Both the position numbers and the translations under genes were made by a program. From positions 1 to 40,475 of the forward strand of contig WGLV01000042.1 in assembly GCA_016125385.1 (NCBI GenBank): a DNA stretch of 40,475 bases. Direction: 5' to 3'. Position 1 is the stretch's first letter, and the number at the start of each line of letters is the position of its first letter. Positions 20,165-26,569 of this stretch are shown piece after piece. The DNA comes from a bacterium (GTDB lineage Bacteria; Hinthialibacterota; Hinthialibacteria; Hinthialibacterales; Hinthialibacteraceae). The notes beneath the pieces were generated by a model, which was not told the origin of the DNA, ran no database searches, and saw only the letters and a list, made by a program, of their open reading frames with translations.

Positions 20165-22569
20165 GCGCTCATCATCGCATTCGGCTGCTTTTGGTCTGTC
20201 TCGGATTATGTTGGCTTGCAGCGGCCGCCTTCGCCGAACCCATCAAGGATATCCGCATTGAAGGCGTGCAATTTACCAACGAGCAGAACGTTCGGGAAGT
20301 GATCACGACCCGCGTGGGCGACGAATTGACGTCGCCCGCCGTGCGTTTAAGCATTCGTGACGACGTTCGAGCCATTTGGGCGCTGGGTAAATACTCCAAT
20401 GTCGAGACGCGCACGGAACCGGTCGATTCCGGCGCCGCGCTGATTTTTTCACTTCAGGAAAAACCCCGCCTGGCGGATATCCGCTTTGAGGGCAACGACC
20501 GGCTTGGAAACAACCGGTTGCTCAAGGAACTTGGTTTCGACGAAAAACCGAAGCCGTTAGTGTTTTTTGACGACGCCGCCGCTGAATCGTATAAAACCAA
20601 ACTCTCCGACTATTACACCAAACAATCCTTCCCCAATACGGAAATTACCTGGCGCGCCGAAGACGGCTCCGAGCCAAACACCAAAGTGTTAGTCTTCACC
20701 ATCACCGAAGGCGAAAAACGTCCGGTAAAAGAAATCGTCTTTGAGGGTAATACCGTTTTGGGTGATAAAACCCTCAAAAAACGCATGCAAACCAAGGAGT
20801 CGTGGTGGTTTATTATCAAGCATGAGTTTAACGAGAGCGTCGCGTCTGATGACGCTCTTCGCATTGAACGCACCTATTGGGATTACGGATATCTTGACGC
20901 CGGCGCCGAACTGGTTGGCGCTGAACCGATGGATGGCGGCCTGCGAGTCAAATACAAAATCACCGAAGGCCAGCCCTACACGCTGGGCGGAATCAACGTT
21001 ACCGGCAACACCATCTTTTCGGATGAAGAGTTGCTATCCAAATTCACCTCCAAGCCGGGCGATACCTTTGACGCTGCCAAGATTCAGCAGGATGAGATCG
21101 AGATGCTCAACCTGTATCGCGCTCAGGGCTATCTCGATGTGTCGGCTCCCGTGCTGCCCGATCAGGTCGTCAAAGACGAGGCCAACCACGTCGCCACTAT
21201 CAACATGACGATTCGCGAGGCGCCGCGCAAATATCTCGGCAAAGTGGATATTCAGGGCGTCATCACCATGGACGATGGAACCGTCGTCCCCACGCAGGAA
21301 GGCGAGTTCAAAACCAAGGACTTCGTTATCACCCGTGAACTGGAACTGACCGAGGGCGAGCCGCTCGACTGGACGGCTGTGCTGGAGAGCGACCGCAATC
21401 TGGTCAACACCGGCTTCTTCAAGACGGTTCCCTATCGTCAGGCGGGGCAACTCAATCTGGCTCCGGGCTTCAAGCGTGAGAAGACAAACGATCCCAACGT
21501 TGAAAACCTGTTGCTTCAGCTGGAAGAGGAGCAGACCGGCTCCCTGTCGTTCGGCGGCGGCGTCAGCACGACGTATGGCCCATCGCTGTTCGCCTCCGTG
21601 GGCGAGCGCAACCTGTTCGGCTACGGCGTGAAGGGAACCATCACCGGCGAGTATGGCCAGTTCCGCCGCCGCGCGGTACTGAACATCTTCGAGCCGTACC
21701 TGCTTGGCTCCGATATCAGCGCCGACTGGGACATCTACTGGATCGACACGCAGGGCTTCGGCGGGCGTACCTTTGATGAAAATCGAGTCGGAACTTCCGT
21801 ATTGTTCAGTAAAGACCTGACCGATGAGTGGGAACTTTTATTTGGTTTCAAGATCGAAGACACCGACCTGTCGCCCGAATCGGGCAGCCAGTTCGATCTC
21901 GATCCTCTCACGATTCCTCATCAGTTTAATCTTGGTAAAAACATGACCACCAGCATTACGGTGGGCTTCCAGTATGATACGCGCGATTTCCGCATGGATC
22001 CCACCGATGGAATCTATGCGCGCAGCACGCTGGAACTGGCGGGTCTGACCGATAACGAATTCATCAAAAACCGCAACGAATTCAACTATTACTACGAACT
22101 GTTCGACCGAATGGTTCTCGCTACTTCCACGGAACTTCAGCTGGCGTACGCCTATGGCAGCCCCGGTTACGTTCCCATGCAGGAACGCTACTTCGTGGGC
22201 GGTTCGCGCACCGTGCGCGGGTTCCGCGAAGGTGGAATCGGCGAGTCGGCGCGCCTCTGGTATAAAGACCCCGTCCTGGGCAGCTTCCATAGTTACTTGG
22301 GCGGTGAGGCGTCACACGTTACGAACGCCGAAATGCGCTATAGCTTTTCAGAAGTGGTTCAGGGCGTGGTGTTTATGGACGTGGGCGCCGTCTGGCCTGA
22401 AATCGGCGATATTAACCCGGTCGACTACCGCGTCAGCACGGGGCTTGGGCTTCGCATCAAAATACCCTTCGCTAACGCAATCATCCGGTTTGATTTCCCC
22501 TTCGTCATCCGCAAAATGGATGAAGACGAGACGGAACTGTTCCACTTCAGTTTTGGTCAGACGTTTTAA
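20161..22569 (+). CDS. bamA: BamA/Omp85 outer membrane assembly factor
   Basis: Central pore-like protein that folds beta-barrels into the outer membrane. A signal peptide ends at AFA/EP, then about five POTRA domains (each starting like IKDIRIEGV or VKEIVFEGN), then a C-terminal beta-barrel with the conserved VRGF motif (GGSRTVRGFREG). The start is unusual. The frame has no ATG or GTG after the stop at 20131; a TTG at 20191 would remove the basic n-region of the signal peptide. CTG at 20161, 7 nt after GGAGG (20149-20153) and overlapping the clpC stop as CTGA, restores SAHHRIR before the hydrophobic core. That start gives 802 residues; the TTG gives 792. Confidence 0.93.
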   Translation: MSAHHRIRLLLVCLGLCWLAAAAFAEPIKDIRIEGVQFTNEQNVREVITTRVGDELTSPAVRLSIRDDVRAIWALGKYSNVETRTEPVDSGAALIFSLQEKPRLADIRFEGNDRLGNNRLLKELGFDEKPKPLVFFDDAAAESYKTKLSDYYTKQSFPNTEITWRAEDGSEPNTKVLVFTITEGEKRPVKEIVFEGNTVLGDKTLKKRMQTKESWWFIIKHEFNESVASDDALRIERTYWDYGYLDAGAELVGAEPMDGGLRVKYKITEGQPYTLGGINVTGNTIFSDEELLSKFTSKPGDTFDAAKIQQDEIEMLNLYRAQGYLDVSAPVLPDQVVKDEANHVATINMTIREAPRKYLGKVDIQGVITMDDGTVVPTQEGEFKTKDFVITRELELTEGEPLDWTAVLESDRNLVNTGFFKTVPYRQAGQLNLAPGFKREKTNDPNVENLLLQLEEEQTGSLSFGGGVSTTYGPSLFASVGERNLFGYGVKGTITGEYGQFRRRAVLNIFEPYLLGSDISADWDIYWIDTQGFGGRTFDENRVGTSVLFSKDLTDEWELLFGFKIEDTDLSPESGSQFDLDPLTIPHQFNLGKNMTTSITVGFQYDTRDFRMDPTDGIYARSTLELAGLTDNEFIKNRNEFNYYYELFDRMVLATSTELQLAYAYGSPGYVPMQERYFVGGSRTVRGFREGGIGESARLWYKDPVLGSFHSYLGGEASHVTNAEMRYSFSEVVQGVVFMDVGAVWPEIGDINPVDYRVSTGLGLRIKIPFANAIIRFDFPFVIRKMDEDETELFHFSFGQTF

Positions 22570-22731: not shown

Positions 22732-23253
22732 ATGTGTAAGCAGTTCAGCCGTATACTCATCGCCGTCGCCGTCTTCACTTTCGTGGGAGTGGTTCCCGCC
22801 GCTCACGCGCAGGGCGTCAAGATCGGCGTGATCGACATGCTGGAAATTTTCCAGAAAACCGACAAACTGCAGGCGATTTCAAAGCAATACAAGGAGTCGC
22901 TTGATAAGAAAAACAAAGAGCTCGCCGACAAAAAACAGGAGTTGAACGACAAAATCGAAAAACTTCAAGTTCAGCGCGAACTGATGCCGAAAGAAACCTA
23001 CGAAAAACAGAAGGCCGATCTGCAGAGCCAGATTCAGAACTTCGGCGAATATTACCAGACGGAACAGAAGGCGCTCGACGATAAGAAAACCGAGTTGCTC
23101 AAGCCCGTGCTGGAAGAACTTCGCGGCGTCGTCGGTGAAGTCGCCAAGGCGAAGGGCTTTTCAATCATCATCAAAAAAGAATACGTCGCGTTTTCTGAAG
23201 ACTCGCTTGATATCACCAGCGAAGTCGTTACGCGCATGAACGCGAAAAAGTAA
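22732..23253 (+). CDS. skp: Skp/OmpH-type periplasmic chaperone
   Basis: Holds unfolded outer-membrane proteins in the periplasm on their way to BamA. The protein is 173 residues: a signal peptide (cut after AHA, about residue 26), a short beta part (VKIGVIDMLEIFQ), a long charged coiled coil (about 48-120) forming the tentacles, and a C-terminal beta part (SIIIKKEYVAF). GGGAGG (22718-22723) is 8 nt before the ATG. It follows bamA by 162 bp; a lone -10-like TACAAT (22691-22696) is present without a clear -35. Order and function fit a bamA-skp-lpxD-lpxC-lpxA operon. Confidence 0.92.
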   Translation: MCKQFSRILIAVAVFTFVGVVPAAHAQGVKIGVIDMLEIFQKTDKLQAISKQYKESLDKKNKELADKKQELNDKIEKLQVQRELMPKETYEKQKADLQSQIQNFGEYYQTEQKALDDKKTELLKPVLEELRGVVGEVAKAKGFSIIIKKEYVAFSEDSLDITSEVVTRMNAKK

Positions 23254-23296: not shown

Positions 23297-24295
23297 ATGC
23301 CGACGATCAGTCTGAAGGACCTGTCGAACGAATTGGGAGAGCCGTTTGAGGGCGACGGCTCGACCCTGTTGCAAGGCGTTGCTGAAATTACAACGGCGAA
23401 ACAGGGCGATTTGTCGTTCGTTGCCAATCCCAAGTACGTTTCGAAAATTCCTCAAACGTCCGCGTCGGCTCTGATCGTCCCCAAAGACCTCGAAACCGCG
23501 TTTCGGCCTCTGATTCGCAGCGATAATCCTTATCTGACCTTTACCAAGGCGCTTCACTGGTTTCATAAACAGCAGCGGCCCACGTCGGGAGGCATTCACC
23601 CCGAGAGCCAGATCGCAACCACGGCCCGGCTGGGCGCCGACGTGACCATCATGGCCCACGCCATGATTGAAGACGGCGCGGTGTTGGGCGACCGGGTGGT
23701 GATATACCCCGGAGTCTTTGTTGGAGCGGGTGCGCGCATCGGCGATGACGTGACGCTGTACCCTCACGTGTCGGTCTACGCGGGGTGCGAGATCCAGAAC
23801 CTCTCCATCATTCACGCGGGCGCGCGCATCGGCGCCGTGTCGGGCATGACGTATGAAGAAGGCAAGGCGCCGGTCTTCATCGGCGCTGACGTCGAACTGG
23901 GCGCCAATGTGGTGGTTTCAGGCGATCCGGTCCGAACCACGAGCATTGGGGAAGGCTCCAAAATCGACAATCTGGTTCAGGTCGGCCCGGGGTCATCCAT
24001 CGGCCCTCACTGCATCATCGTCGCTCAGGTGAGTCTGGGCGCGGGGGTAGAGATCGGTGAACGCGTCACCATCGCCGGTCAGGTCGTCGTGTCTGAAAAC
24101 GTGAAAATCGGCGCTCGGTCCCGCATCGGAGCGCAAAGCGTCGTCACCGGCGATGTCCCGCCCGATTCGGATTACTGGGGCGCGCCGGCTCAACCTCATT
24201 CACAGGAAAAACGGCAGAAGGTCAACCTCGCCAGGTTGCCCCGGCTGTTCGATAAACTGAAGGAAATCGAAGAAAAACTCTCTGGAAAATCATAA
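23297..24295 (+). CDS. lpxD: LpxD-family acyltransferase lacking the usual active-site histidines
   Basis: LpxD N-acylates UDP-3-O-acyl-glucosamine in lipid A synthesis. The protein is 332 residues: an N-terminal uridine-binding domain (GDLSFVANPKYV, NPYLTFTKALHWF), a left-handed beta-helix of hexapeptide repeats, and a C-terminal helix. The landmark KIDNLVQ (222-228) is intact, but the IAHN that normally follows is VGPG, so the catalytic His is P231 (CCG at 23987). The second conserved His, in the GQxGxxGH segment, aligns with N268. The DGFGF and IDRGA motifs are also missing. ATG 23297 follows GGAG (23287-23290) by 6 nt; ATG 23285 has none. It sits in the normal operon position, so it is either an altered LpxD or a non-catalytic one. 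Confidence 0.88.
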   Translation: MPTISLKDLSNELGEPFEGDGSTLLQGVAEITTAKQGDLSFVANPKYVSKIPQTSASALIVPKDLETAFRPLIRSDNPYLTFTKALHWFHKQQRPTSGGIHPESQIATTARLGADVTIMAHAMIEDGAVLGDRVVIYPGVFVGAGARIGDDVTLYPHVSVYAGCEIQNLSIIHAGARIGAVSGMTYEEGKAPVFIGADVELGANVVVSGDPVRTTSIGEGSKIDNLVQVGPGSSIGPHCIIVAQVSLGAGVEIGERVTIAGQVVVSENVKIGARSRIGAQSVVTGDVPPDSDYWGAPAQPHSQEKRQKVNLARLPRLFDKLKEIEEKLSGKS

Positions 24296-24297
24296 TT

Positions 24298-25635
24298 ATG
24301 GTGGAGTATCAAAAAACCATCGCGGGTGAAGTCAGTATCAGCGGCGTCGGTCTGCATACCGGCCAGGAAACCACGGTTACCTTCAAGCCGGCGGACGCCG
24401 ACACCGGAATCGTATTCGTCCGGGGCGACATGCCCGGCAAACCGCGAATCGAAGCCCGGGCTGAAAACGCCATCCTCGAAGATTCATTGTATCTGACGGC
24501 GCTGGGCCGTAATGAACTGCAGATTCAGACGGTCGAACACGTTCTCGCCGCGTGCAGCGGGTTGGGAATCGATAATATCATTCTCGAACTCTCGTCCAGC
24601 GAACCTCCGATCGCTGACGGCAGCGCTCAGATATTCGTCGACGCCATCCGTAACACGGGCATCGTCACGCTCGACCGTCCTAAAAAGTTCATCGAGGTGA
24701 AAGAGCCCATCTGGCTGTTTGAAAACGGGCTTGAGATCGCAATCATCCCGTCGCACCGGCTCGAGATCACCTACAAGATCGATTACGATCATCCCGTGGT
24801 GGGCATCCGTTCCGCCTCGTTTTTAATTACCGAAGAAAACTTCGCCGAAAAGATCGCCCCGGCGCGCACCTTCTGCTTCCTGAAGGATGTGGACGTCCTT
24901 CGCCAGAATGGCAAGATCAAAGGGGGCAGCCTCGAAAACGCCATCGTGATCGGCGAGCATGACTTTCTTAACGAAGAACTGCGGTTTGAAGACGAAATCG
25001 TGCGCCATAAGATTCTCGATGTGATCGGCGACCTGACCCTGCTTGGCAGCCCGCTCAAAGGGCACGTGATCGCGGTTCGCTCGGGGCACGCGTTTAATAT
25101 CCGCTTCGTCCGCAAAGTGCTCGAAACGCTGAACGGCAAGGTATCCAAAGCCAGCGACGATCTGACCGCGCTGCCCCTGCCGATTTCATCATCTCAAATT
25201 CGCCGGATATTACCGCATCGCTATCCGTTTCTGCTGATCGATCGGGTGATCGATCTCGATTATGAAGAGATGCGCGTGGTTGCGATAAAGAACGTTACCA
25301 GCAACGAAGAGTTTTTTACCGGTCATTTTCCGCAGGAACCCATCATGCCGGGCGTGCTGCTGATTGAGGCGATGGCCCAGACCGGCGGCGTTCTGCTATT
25401 GTCGTTGGAAGCAAACCGGGGTAAAGTCGCCTACCTGGCTGGTGTGAACAACACCAAGATTCGCCGGCGGATCATTCCGGGCGACCAGTTGCGGATCGAG
25501 ACCCGTATCACCAAGCTGAAAAGCAAGGCGGGCCGGGTTGAAAGCAAGATTCACGTGGATGGCGATCTGGCGGCGGAGGCGGAAATCTTCTTCTCGATCG
25601 CCGATGCTCCCGAAAACTGGAACGCACGCCCCTGA
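24298..25635 (+). CDS. lpxC-fabZ: LpxC-FabZ fusion: lipid A deacetylase plus hydroxyacyl-ACP dehydratase
   Basis: A 445-residue two-domain enzyme. Residues 1 to about 285 are LpxC, the zinc deacetylase that commits UDP-3-O-acyl-GlcNAc to lipid A; zinc ligands H81 (TVEHVLAA), H237 and D241 (RHKILDVIGD) and the catalytic H264 are present. Residues about 296-445 are FabZ, a hot-dog-fold dehydratase of fatty acid elongation, with ILPHRYPFLLIDR and the active H343 in FFTGHFPQEPIMPG and E357. Both halves look active. The same fusion is known in Bacteroidetes and several other phyla. The start is 2 bp past the lpxD stop and has only a weak ribosome binding site, so translation is probably coupled. 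Confidence 0.96.
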   Translation: MVEYQKTIAGEVSISGVGLHTGQETTVTFKPADADTGIVFVRGDMPGKPRIEARAENAILEDSLYLTALGRNELQIQTVEHVLAACSGLGIDNIILELSSSEPPIADGSAQIFVDAIRNTGIVTLDRPKKFIEVKEPIWLFENGLEIAIIPSHRLEITYKIDYDHPVVGIRSASFLITEENFAEKIAPARTFCFLKDVDVLRQNGKIKGGSLENAIVIGEHDFLNEELRFEDEIVRHKILDVIGDLTLLGSPLKGHVIAVRSGHAFNIRFVRKVLETLNGKVSKASDDLTALPLPISSSQIRRILPHRYPFLLIDRVIDLDYEEMRVVAIKNVTSNEEFFTGHFPQEPIMPGVLLIEAMAQTGGVLLLSLEANRGKVAYLAGVNNTKIRRRIIPGDQLRIETRITKLKSKAGRVESKIHVDGDLAAEAEIFFSIADAPENWNARP

Positions 25636-25792: not shown

Positions 25793-26569
25793 ATGCCTTC
25801 AGTATCTAATACGGCGATCGTTCATCCTAAAGCCGAATTGCACGATACCGTAGAAATCGGTCCATACGCCATCATTGGCGAACATGTGAAGCTGGATGAA
25901 GGCGCTGTTGTCGGTCCTCACGCGATTATCGAAGGCTGGACCCAACTGGGCAAAAACTGCAAGATCGGCGCGGGCGCCGTCATCGGCAGCGAGCCTCAGG
26001 ACCTTAAGTATCGCGGCGGTGAAAGTTATGTCACCATCGGCGATAACACCGTCATTCGCGAATACGCCACCGTGAACCGGGGGACTTTTGAAGGCGAGTC
26101 GACCGTAATCGGTAACAACTGCTTTGTGATGTCGTATTGTCACATCGCTCACAACTGCATTTTGCAGGACCGCGTCATCATGTCGAGTTACGCGGGCCTC
26201 GCCGGGCATATTCTGATCGAAGAAAACGCCATCATCGGCGGGCTGGTGGGAATTCATCAGTTCGTGCGGGTGGGCCGCTGTTCCATCATTGGCGGCGGCG
26301 CCGCGGTTCGGCAGGATATCCTCCCCTATACCAAAGCGAGTGGAAACCCCTGTAAATCGCGCGGTCTCAATATCATCGGCCTCAAGCGTCTCAACTTCTC
26401 GCCCGAACGCCGTTCACTATTGAAAAAAGCCTATCGCACCATCTTCCGTTCTAACCTGACCGAAGAACGCGCCATTGAGTTGCTTGAAGAAGACATGGAC
26501 GCTTCTATCGAGATCAGGCACATGGTCGAGTTCATGCGCGCGTCGCAACGCGGCCTGGCCCGGATGTAG
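25793..26569 (+). CDS. lpxA: UDP-N-acetylglucosamine acyltransferase
   Basis: First enzyme of lipid A synthesis, adding a hydroxyacyl chain to the 3-OH of UDP-GlcNAc. The 258-residue length is standard: a left-handed beta-helix of hexapeptide repeats followed by a helical C-terminus. The catalytic His is H120 in CHIAHNC, and the flanking IREYATVNRGT and GGLVGIHQFVRVG are as in the family. In contrast to the lpxD in the same cluster, its active site is intact. lpxB does not follow; the next gene is convergent, so the lipid A cluster ends here. Confidence 0.96.
   Translation: MPSVSNTAIVHPKAELHDTVEIGPYAIIGEHVKLDEGAVVGPHAIIEGWTQLGKNCKIGAGAVIGSEPQDLKYRGGESYVTIGDNTVIREYATVNRGTFEGESTVIGNNCFVMSYCHIAHNCILQDRVIMSSYAGLAGHILIEENAIIGGLVGIHQFVRVGRCSIIGGGAAVRQDILPYTKASGNPCKSRGLNIIGLKRLNFSPERRSLLKKAYRTIFRSNLTEERAIELLEEDMDASIEIRHMVEFMRASQRGLARM

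Follow-up and report, generated by a model that had tools for sequence, protein, structure and literature searches.

LpxD, the essential UDP-3-O-(3-hydroxyacyl)glucosamine N-acyltransferase of lipid A synthesis, is in the phylum of the bacterium studied here most probably an obligate heteromer encoded by two unlinked genes which, as judged from the sequences, would form one working cleft per trimer and make normal lipid A. One of these genes (lpxD-A) is located in the window, that is, the whole stretch of 40,475 nucleotides that was analysed, and the other (lpxD-B) on a different contig of the same genome. Such an enzyme, with its single active cleft, probably arose when the gene was duplicated in a common ancestor of two phyla and the copies reciprocally lost the two halves of the active site. 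We infer the physical complex of A and B, its stoichiometry and its activity from the residues that each protein has kept and lost. No description of a heteromeric or pseudoenzyme LpxD was found in the literature searched, which likewise reports no Lpx enzyme that works as a mixed trimer with only one active cleft.

The window gene and its neighbours, all on the forward strand, are as follows.
20191-22569, plus strand: bamA, with which the conserved neighbourhood begins (TIGR03303).
22732-23253, plus strand: skp/ompH chaperone gene (NF008047 match below its cut-off; synteny).
23297-24295, plus strand: lpxD-A, encoding a full-length LpxD homologue of 332 aa with the uridine domain intact and the catalytic side lost (translation).
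23417-23437, plus strand: uridine-binding motif FVANPKY, with F41, N44 and Y47.
23831-23875, plus strand: eroded and shortened stretch (residues 179-193) replacing the DGFGY loop (alignment).
23960-23971, plus strand: retained KIDN (K222, D224 and N225, equivalent to E. coli 230, 232 and 233), on the alpha face, in 16/16 A proteins.
23981-23992, plus strand: VGPG replacing IAHN, with Pro231 at the position of the general-base histidine, on the beta face (alignment).
24098-24100, plus strand: Asn268 in place of the second conserved histidine, which is His276 in E. coli (alignment).
24298-25635, plus strand: lpxC-fabZ fusion (NF009667, over its cut-off; TIGR00325; TIGR01750).
25793-26569, plus strand: lpxA, with an intact HIAHN motif (TIGR01852; sequence).

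Protein A passes the LpxD equivalog model of NCBIfam (TIGR01853) with 250.6 bits against a cut-off of 242.5, and matches PF04613, the uridine-binding domain. Its AlphaFold2 model, built from 51 sequences, has a mean pLDDT of 93.8 and is confident in the N-terminal domain, the beta-helix and most of the C-terminal helix. When this model was compared with the PDB, the top 25 matches were LpxD without exception, at a TM of about 0.6-0.8 and a high rmsd to the solved enzymes, a comparison which bears on the fold and not on the interface. The model supports an intact fold. A preliminary description, made from the letters of the window, had read the open reading frame, its coordinates and its codons correctly (KIDNLVQ followed by VGPG, with Pro231 encoded by CCG at 23987-23989), and its central observation, that both catalytic histidines are missing from this LpxD, was confirmed: Pro231 stands at E. 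coli His239 and Asn268 at His276. Alignment with the solved enzymes of E. coli and Chlamydia trachomatis, which it had proposed, pairs Pro231 with His239 of the former and His247 of the latter, and also bears out the loss of the DGFGY and IDRG motifs, with the next loop shortened. The same description had taken the N-terminal landmarks, the place in the lipid A operon and the site of the neighbouring LpxA to be intact, as they are: Phe41, Asn44 and Tyr47 are present, and LpxA keeps HIAHN. The gene order in most genomes is bamA-(skp)-lpxD-lpxC/fabZ-lpxA, and synteny on the stretches around the gene places bamA next to lpxD-A in 15/16 relatives; the LpxC-FabZ fusion is an already known arrangement (NF009667). 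The operon is broken up in family f4 (G010, G012 and G013; L096, L098 and L099), where the A gene follows bamA, lpxC-fabZ and lpxA lie elsewhere, and both A and B genes are nevertheless retained.

The search of the window's own genome (G000) with the LpxD model, another check that had been suggested, returned a second match of 241.6 bits on another contig (G000:C9:48815-49549) and no LpxD beyond these two. The gene is the following.
G000:C9:48773-49594 (L069:5774-6595), minus strand: lpxD-B, encoding an LpxD of 273 aa without the N-terminal domain.

Protein B carries the motifs DGFGY, TIDRA, VGHN and MVGHI. It starts at LpxD model position 78 and has no N-terminal uridine-binding domain; in every B protein the TIGR01853 match starts at profile position 78-102 of 325. 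With 243.5 bits protein B of G000 passes the equivalog cut-off of 242.5, and its counterpart in G037, with 240.0 bits, falls slightly under it. B is not a fragment from a contig edge, a possibility ruled out by its position internal to contigs and by the lack of the N-terminal domain in all 17 genomes. Conserved neighbours were sought around the B loci and none was found; this, like the lack of linkage between the two genes, counts against a heteromer. The genome also encodes LpxB and LpxK, so the N-acylation step is needed by the pathway. According to the preliminary description, a second standard LpxD would have reduced the window gene to a mere paralogue. A second gene does exist, but that consequence does not follow, because B lacks the uridine domain and has an eroded acceptor-side face, and A keeps exactly those parts.

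Crystal structures of LpxD, as reviewed in PMC6286764, show that the trimer binds its substrates between subunits. One chain holds the uracil with Phe41 and Tyr47 and part of the pyrophosphate with Asn44, and the Asp232 which holds the 3-hydroxyl of the donor belongs to this same chain, while His239, His276, Gln236, Gly257 (oxyanion) and Phe183 are given by the neighbouring chain (PMC6286764). Residues were counted in a full realignment of 16 A proteins, 17 B proteins and 110 ordinary LpxDs, from which the frameshifted A of G011 was left out. On the first of the two sides, F41, N44 and Y47 are found in all 16 A proteins and in 101, 67 and 82 of the 110 ordinary LpxDs respectively, and B does not have the domain that bears them; D232 is present in 16/16 A, 3/17 B and 110/110 ordinary proteins. 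The B proteins have lost K230 in 17/17 cases and D232 in 14/17. On the catalytic side the distribution is reversed. H239 is absent from all 16 full-length A orthologues, which carry A, S, P, Y or G at this position, and present in 17/17 B and 110/110 ordinary LpxDs, so that its loss is neither chance nor an assembly error, the A genes coming from independent assemblies. G257 is kept in 1/16 A, 17/17 B and 110/110 ordinary proteins, H276 in 2/16 A (as aligned), 16/17 B and 106/110, and F183 in 0/16 A, 17/17 B and 102/110; D181, like F183, occurs in no A protein, and D181-G184 is complete in every B. B thus retains the whole catalytic-side set of both histidines, DGFGY loop and oxyanion glycine, and A and B taken together hold every known active-site residue, each on the side of a single A|B interface where it belongs. 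A few ordinary LpxDs (L058, L030, L036 and L038) have Asn at the second histidine position and keep His239, so this position alone is not diagnostic of lost function.

The division also follows the faces of the beta-helix, which is a triangular prism with six residues a side. The register was taken from the hexapeptide repeat, independently of the result, and every position with at least 90% conservation among the ordinary LpxDs was assigned to a side. Published structures give the sides of D232 and the catalytic residues; the remaining assignments are deduced from the register. Among the 15 positions lost in A only, 14 lie on the beta face (177, 181, 216, 217, 236, 239, 240, 241, 254, 257, 258, 272, 276 and 290), none on the alpha face and one (205) on the gamma face. 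All seven B-only losses (208, 230, 232, 233, 252, 269 and 270) are on alpha, the preceding side. The partition by face has a Fisher p of 8.6e-6, and permutation of the retention differences between A and B gives p = 5e-6. Individual A proteins retain 0-4 of the 14 beta positions and individual B proteins 0-4 of the 7 alpha positions. Mean pairwise identity in the active coils agrees: for the alpha face it is 0.66 in ordinary LpxDs, 0.81 in A and 0.43 in B; for the beta face 0.66, 0.43 and 0.73; for the third (gamma) face 0.51, 0.49 and 0.47. The discarded face of each protein varies like the third face and the retained one is more conserved than in ordinary LpxDs, although comparing faces within one protein is the safer reading, because the ordinary proteins span a wider diversity.

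As controls, seven genomes were taken that each have a pair of ordinary LpxDs, and there both copies keep 6-7 of the 7 alpha and 8-14 of the 14 beta positions. The same split was therefore ruled out in these other two-LpxD genomes. Nor do A and B resemble ordinary duplicated paralogues with a complete site each, since A has lost beta and B alpha positions.

In the mechanism we propose, A and B would form a mixed trimer of composition A2B or AB2. Subunit A would supply the uridine-binding domain and the acceptor-side (alpha) face of the left-handed beta-helix, including Asp232, and subunit B the catalytic (beta) face with the equivalents of His239 and His276, the oxyanion Gly257 and the DGFGY loop. 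A complete cleft would form only between the alpha face of A, with its uridine domain, and the beta face of B, and the A-A, B-B and B-A junctions would lack the full residue set; one of the three sites would thus work in either stoichiometry, carrying out the normal N-acylation of UDP-3-O-acyl-glucosamine. With the active site divided in this way between the two genes, activity is expected from an assembly of A and B and from neither protein alone. The preliminary description had left the choice between N-acylation by another enzyme, N-acylation by another chemistry, and an altered lipid A. The first comes close, in that a second LpxD with both histidines is encoded in the same genome; the other two become superfluous, because B could supply the histidines in trans and none of LpxA, LpxC, LpxB and LpxK is missing.

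The known LpxDs (E. coli 3eh0/4ihf, C. trachomatis 2iu8) have the same domain plan, fold and operon place as A/B and, once A and B are added together, the same active-site residues; they are, however, homotrimers with three complete sites, whereas A and B each have none. Two lpxD genes per genome also occur in Gloeobacter (PMC3087551) and in the seven two-copy genomes; unlike A/B, both copies of the seven tested pairs keep both site faces. By analogy with plant complex I, a mixed beta-helix trimer with one cleft could be stable: in the carbonic anhydrase heterotrimer of that complex, one of the three interfaces is potentially active (PMC7447434). This mitochondrial gamma-carbonic anhydrase (CA1/CA2/CA2L) is likewise a left-handed beta-helix trimer with interface sites, in which some subunits have lost ligands and a single interface can work (PMC7447434), but it differs in its metal site, its reaction, its setting in a eukaryotic organelle and the lack of a reciprocal loss involving a substrate domain. 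If the proposal is true, the A/B pair is a clean natural case of a homomeric enzyme turned into an obligate heteromer, each partner having lost the half of an interface site that the other kept, with the split kept across two phyla, and one working cleft in each LpxD trimer is enough for lipid A synthesis. There is also a caution here for annotators: A and B reach, or come close to, the cut-off of the LpxD equivalog model and neither should work alone, so a test for lpxD presence or an enzyme model based on the homotrimer would mislead.

It is unlikely that B alone is the working N-acyltransferase, as a homotrimer in which the uridine domain is dispensable, with A as a non-catalytic binding or regulatory paralogue, perhaps a UDP-sugar sensor. 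B does have every catalytic-side residue, and a regulatory role is common among pseudoenzymes. LpxA is a working relative of LpxD without the N-terminal domain and, like B, a beta-helix acyltransferase lacking the uridine domain, although by profile B is closer to LpxD (243.5 bits) than to LpxA (74). In a B homotrimer, however, the cleft wall opposite the histidines would have to come from the alpha face of B itself, which is eroded and as variable as the third face, and both the loss in A of exactly the face that B keeps and the conservation of the A alpha face beyond that of ordinary LpxDs would be left unexplained.

We give little credence to the idea that A and B act on different substrates, with B N-acylating a non-UDP or otherwise unusual sugar, A doing another job and lipid A being altered. 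The loss of the uridine domain in B would fit, as would the changed uridine residues of a protein C in family f4, a sign that the fold has been re-used in the phylum; yet A by itself lacks a full active site, B sits in orphan loci with no conserved sugar-pathway neighbours, and LpxA, LpxC, LpxB and LpxK are standard in a genome with no other LpxD. Catalysis by A itself, through other chemistry and a replacement base in the same pocket, appears very doubtful: A is conserved and placed in the lipid A operon, but positions 239, 257, 258 and 276 and the DGFGY loop, where the substitute base suggested in the preliminary description would be looked for, vary among A proteins, whereas conservation would be expected of an active site. 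An error in sequencing or assembly, or a pseudogene in decay, which draft, metagenome-type assemblies and a frameshift in G011 might bring to mind, is refuted by 16 full-length orthologues from separate assemblies that are alike and by a dN/dS of about 0.1.

The heteromer thus remains the preferred reading. One A and one B were found in all 14 genomes of the class examined (G000-G013), and the pair is shared by the three genomes G037, G061 and G062, which belong to a second phylum. When 337 genomes were surveyed, the 17 B proteins without the N-terminal domain top the ranking, with none elsewhere among the matches listed, and the ranking by the A profile is headed by the 16 full-length A proteins. 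In a tree of the beta-helix region A forms one clade (SH-aLRT 99) and B another (90), with identical sub-groups, the second phylum included, so the pair likely dates, on this tree, to the common ancestor of both phyla. Joint movement of A and B is less likely because the genes are unlinked. Since the split is confined to two phyla, the number of independent evolutionary events behind the 17 genomes is small, perhaps one. Between G006 and G008 dN/dS is 0.11 for A, 0.09 for B and 0.03 for LpxA, values that indicate purifying selection on both A and B.

Further observations count against the heteromer. Two of the three B proteins of the second phylum have D232, which suggests that B erosion is less advanced there. 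In G011 a frameshift close to a G-rich stretch interrupts the A gene (L097:5406-6411), and B has Q at the second histidine and keeps Asp232; this may be a sequence error in a MAG or a lineage leaving the two-gene system.

The third LpxD-like protein of family f4, protein C (L084:5481-6575, L085:5083-6162 and L086:5212-6435, in G010, G012 and G013), has both faces intact, a C-terminal extension, and W/S/A instead of F41/N44/Y47 at the uridine positions; judging from these replacements, its substrate may not be a UDP-sugar.
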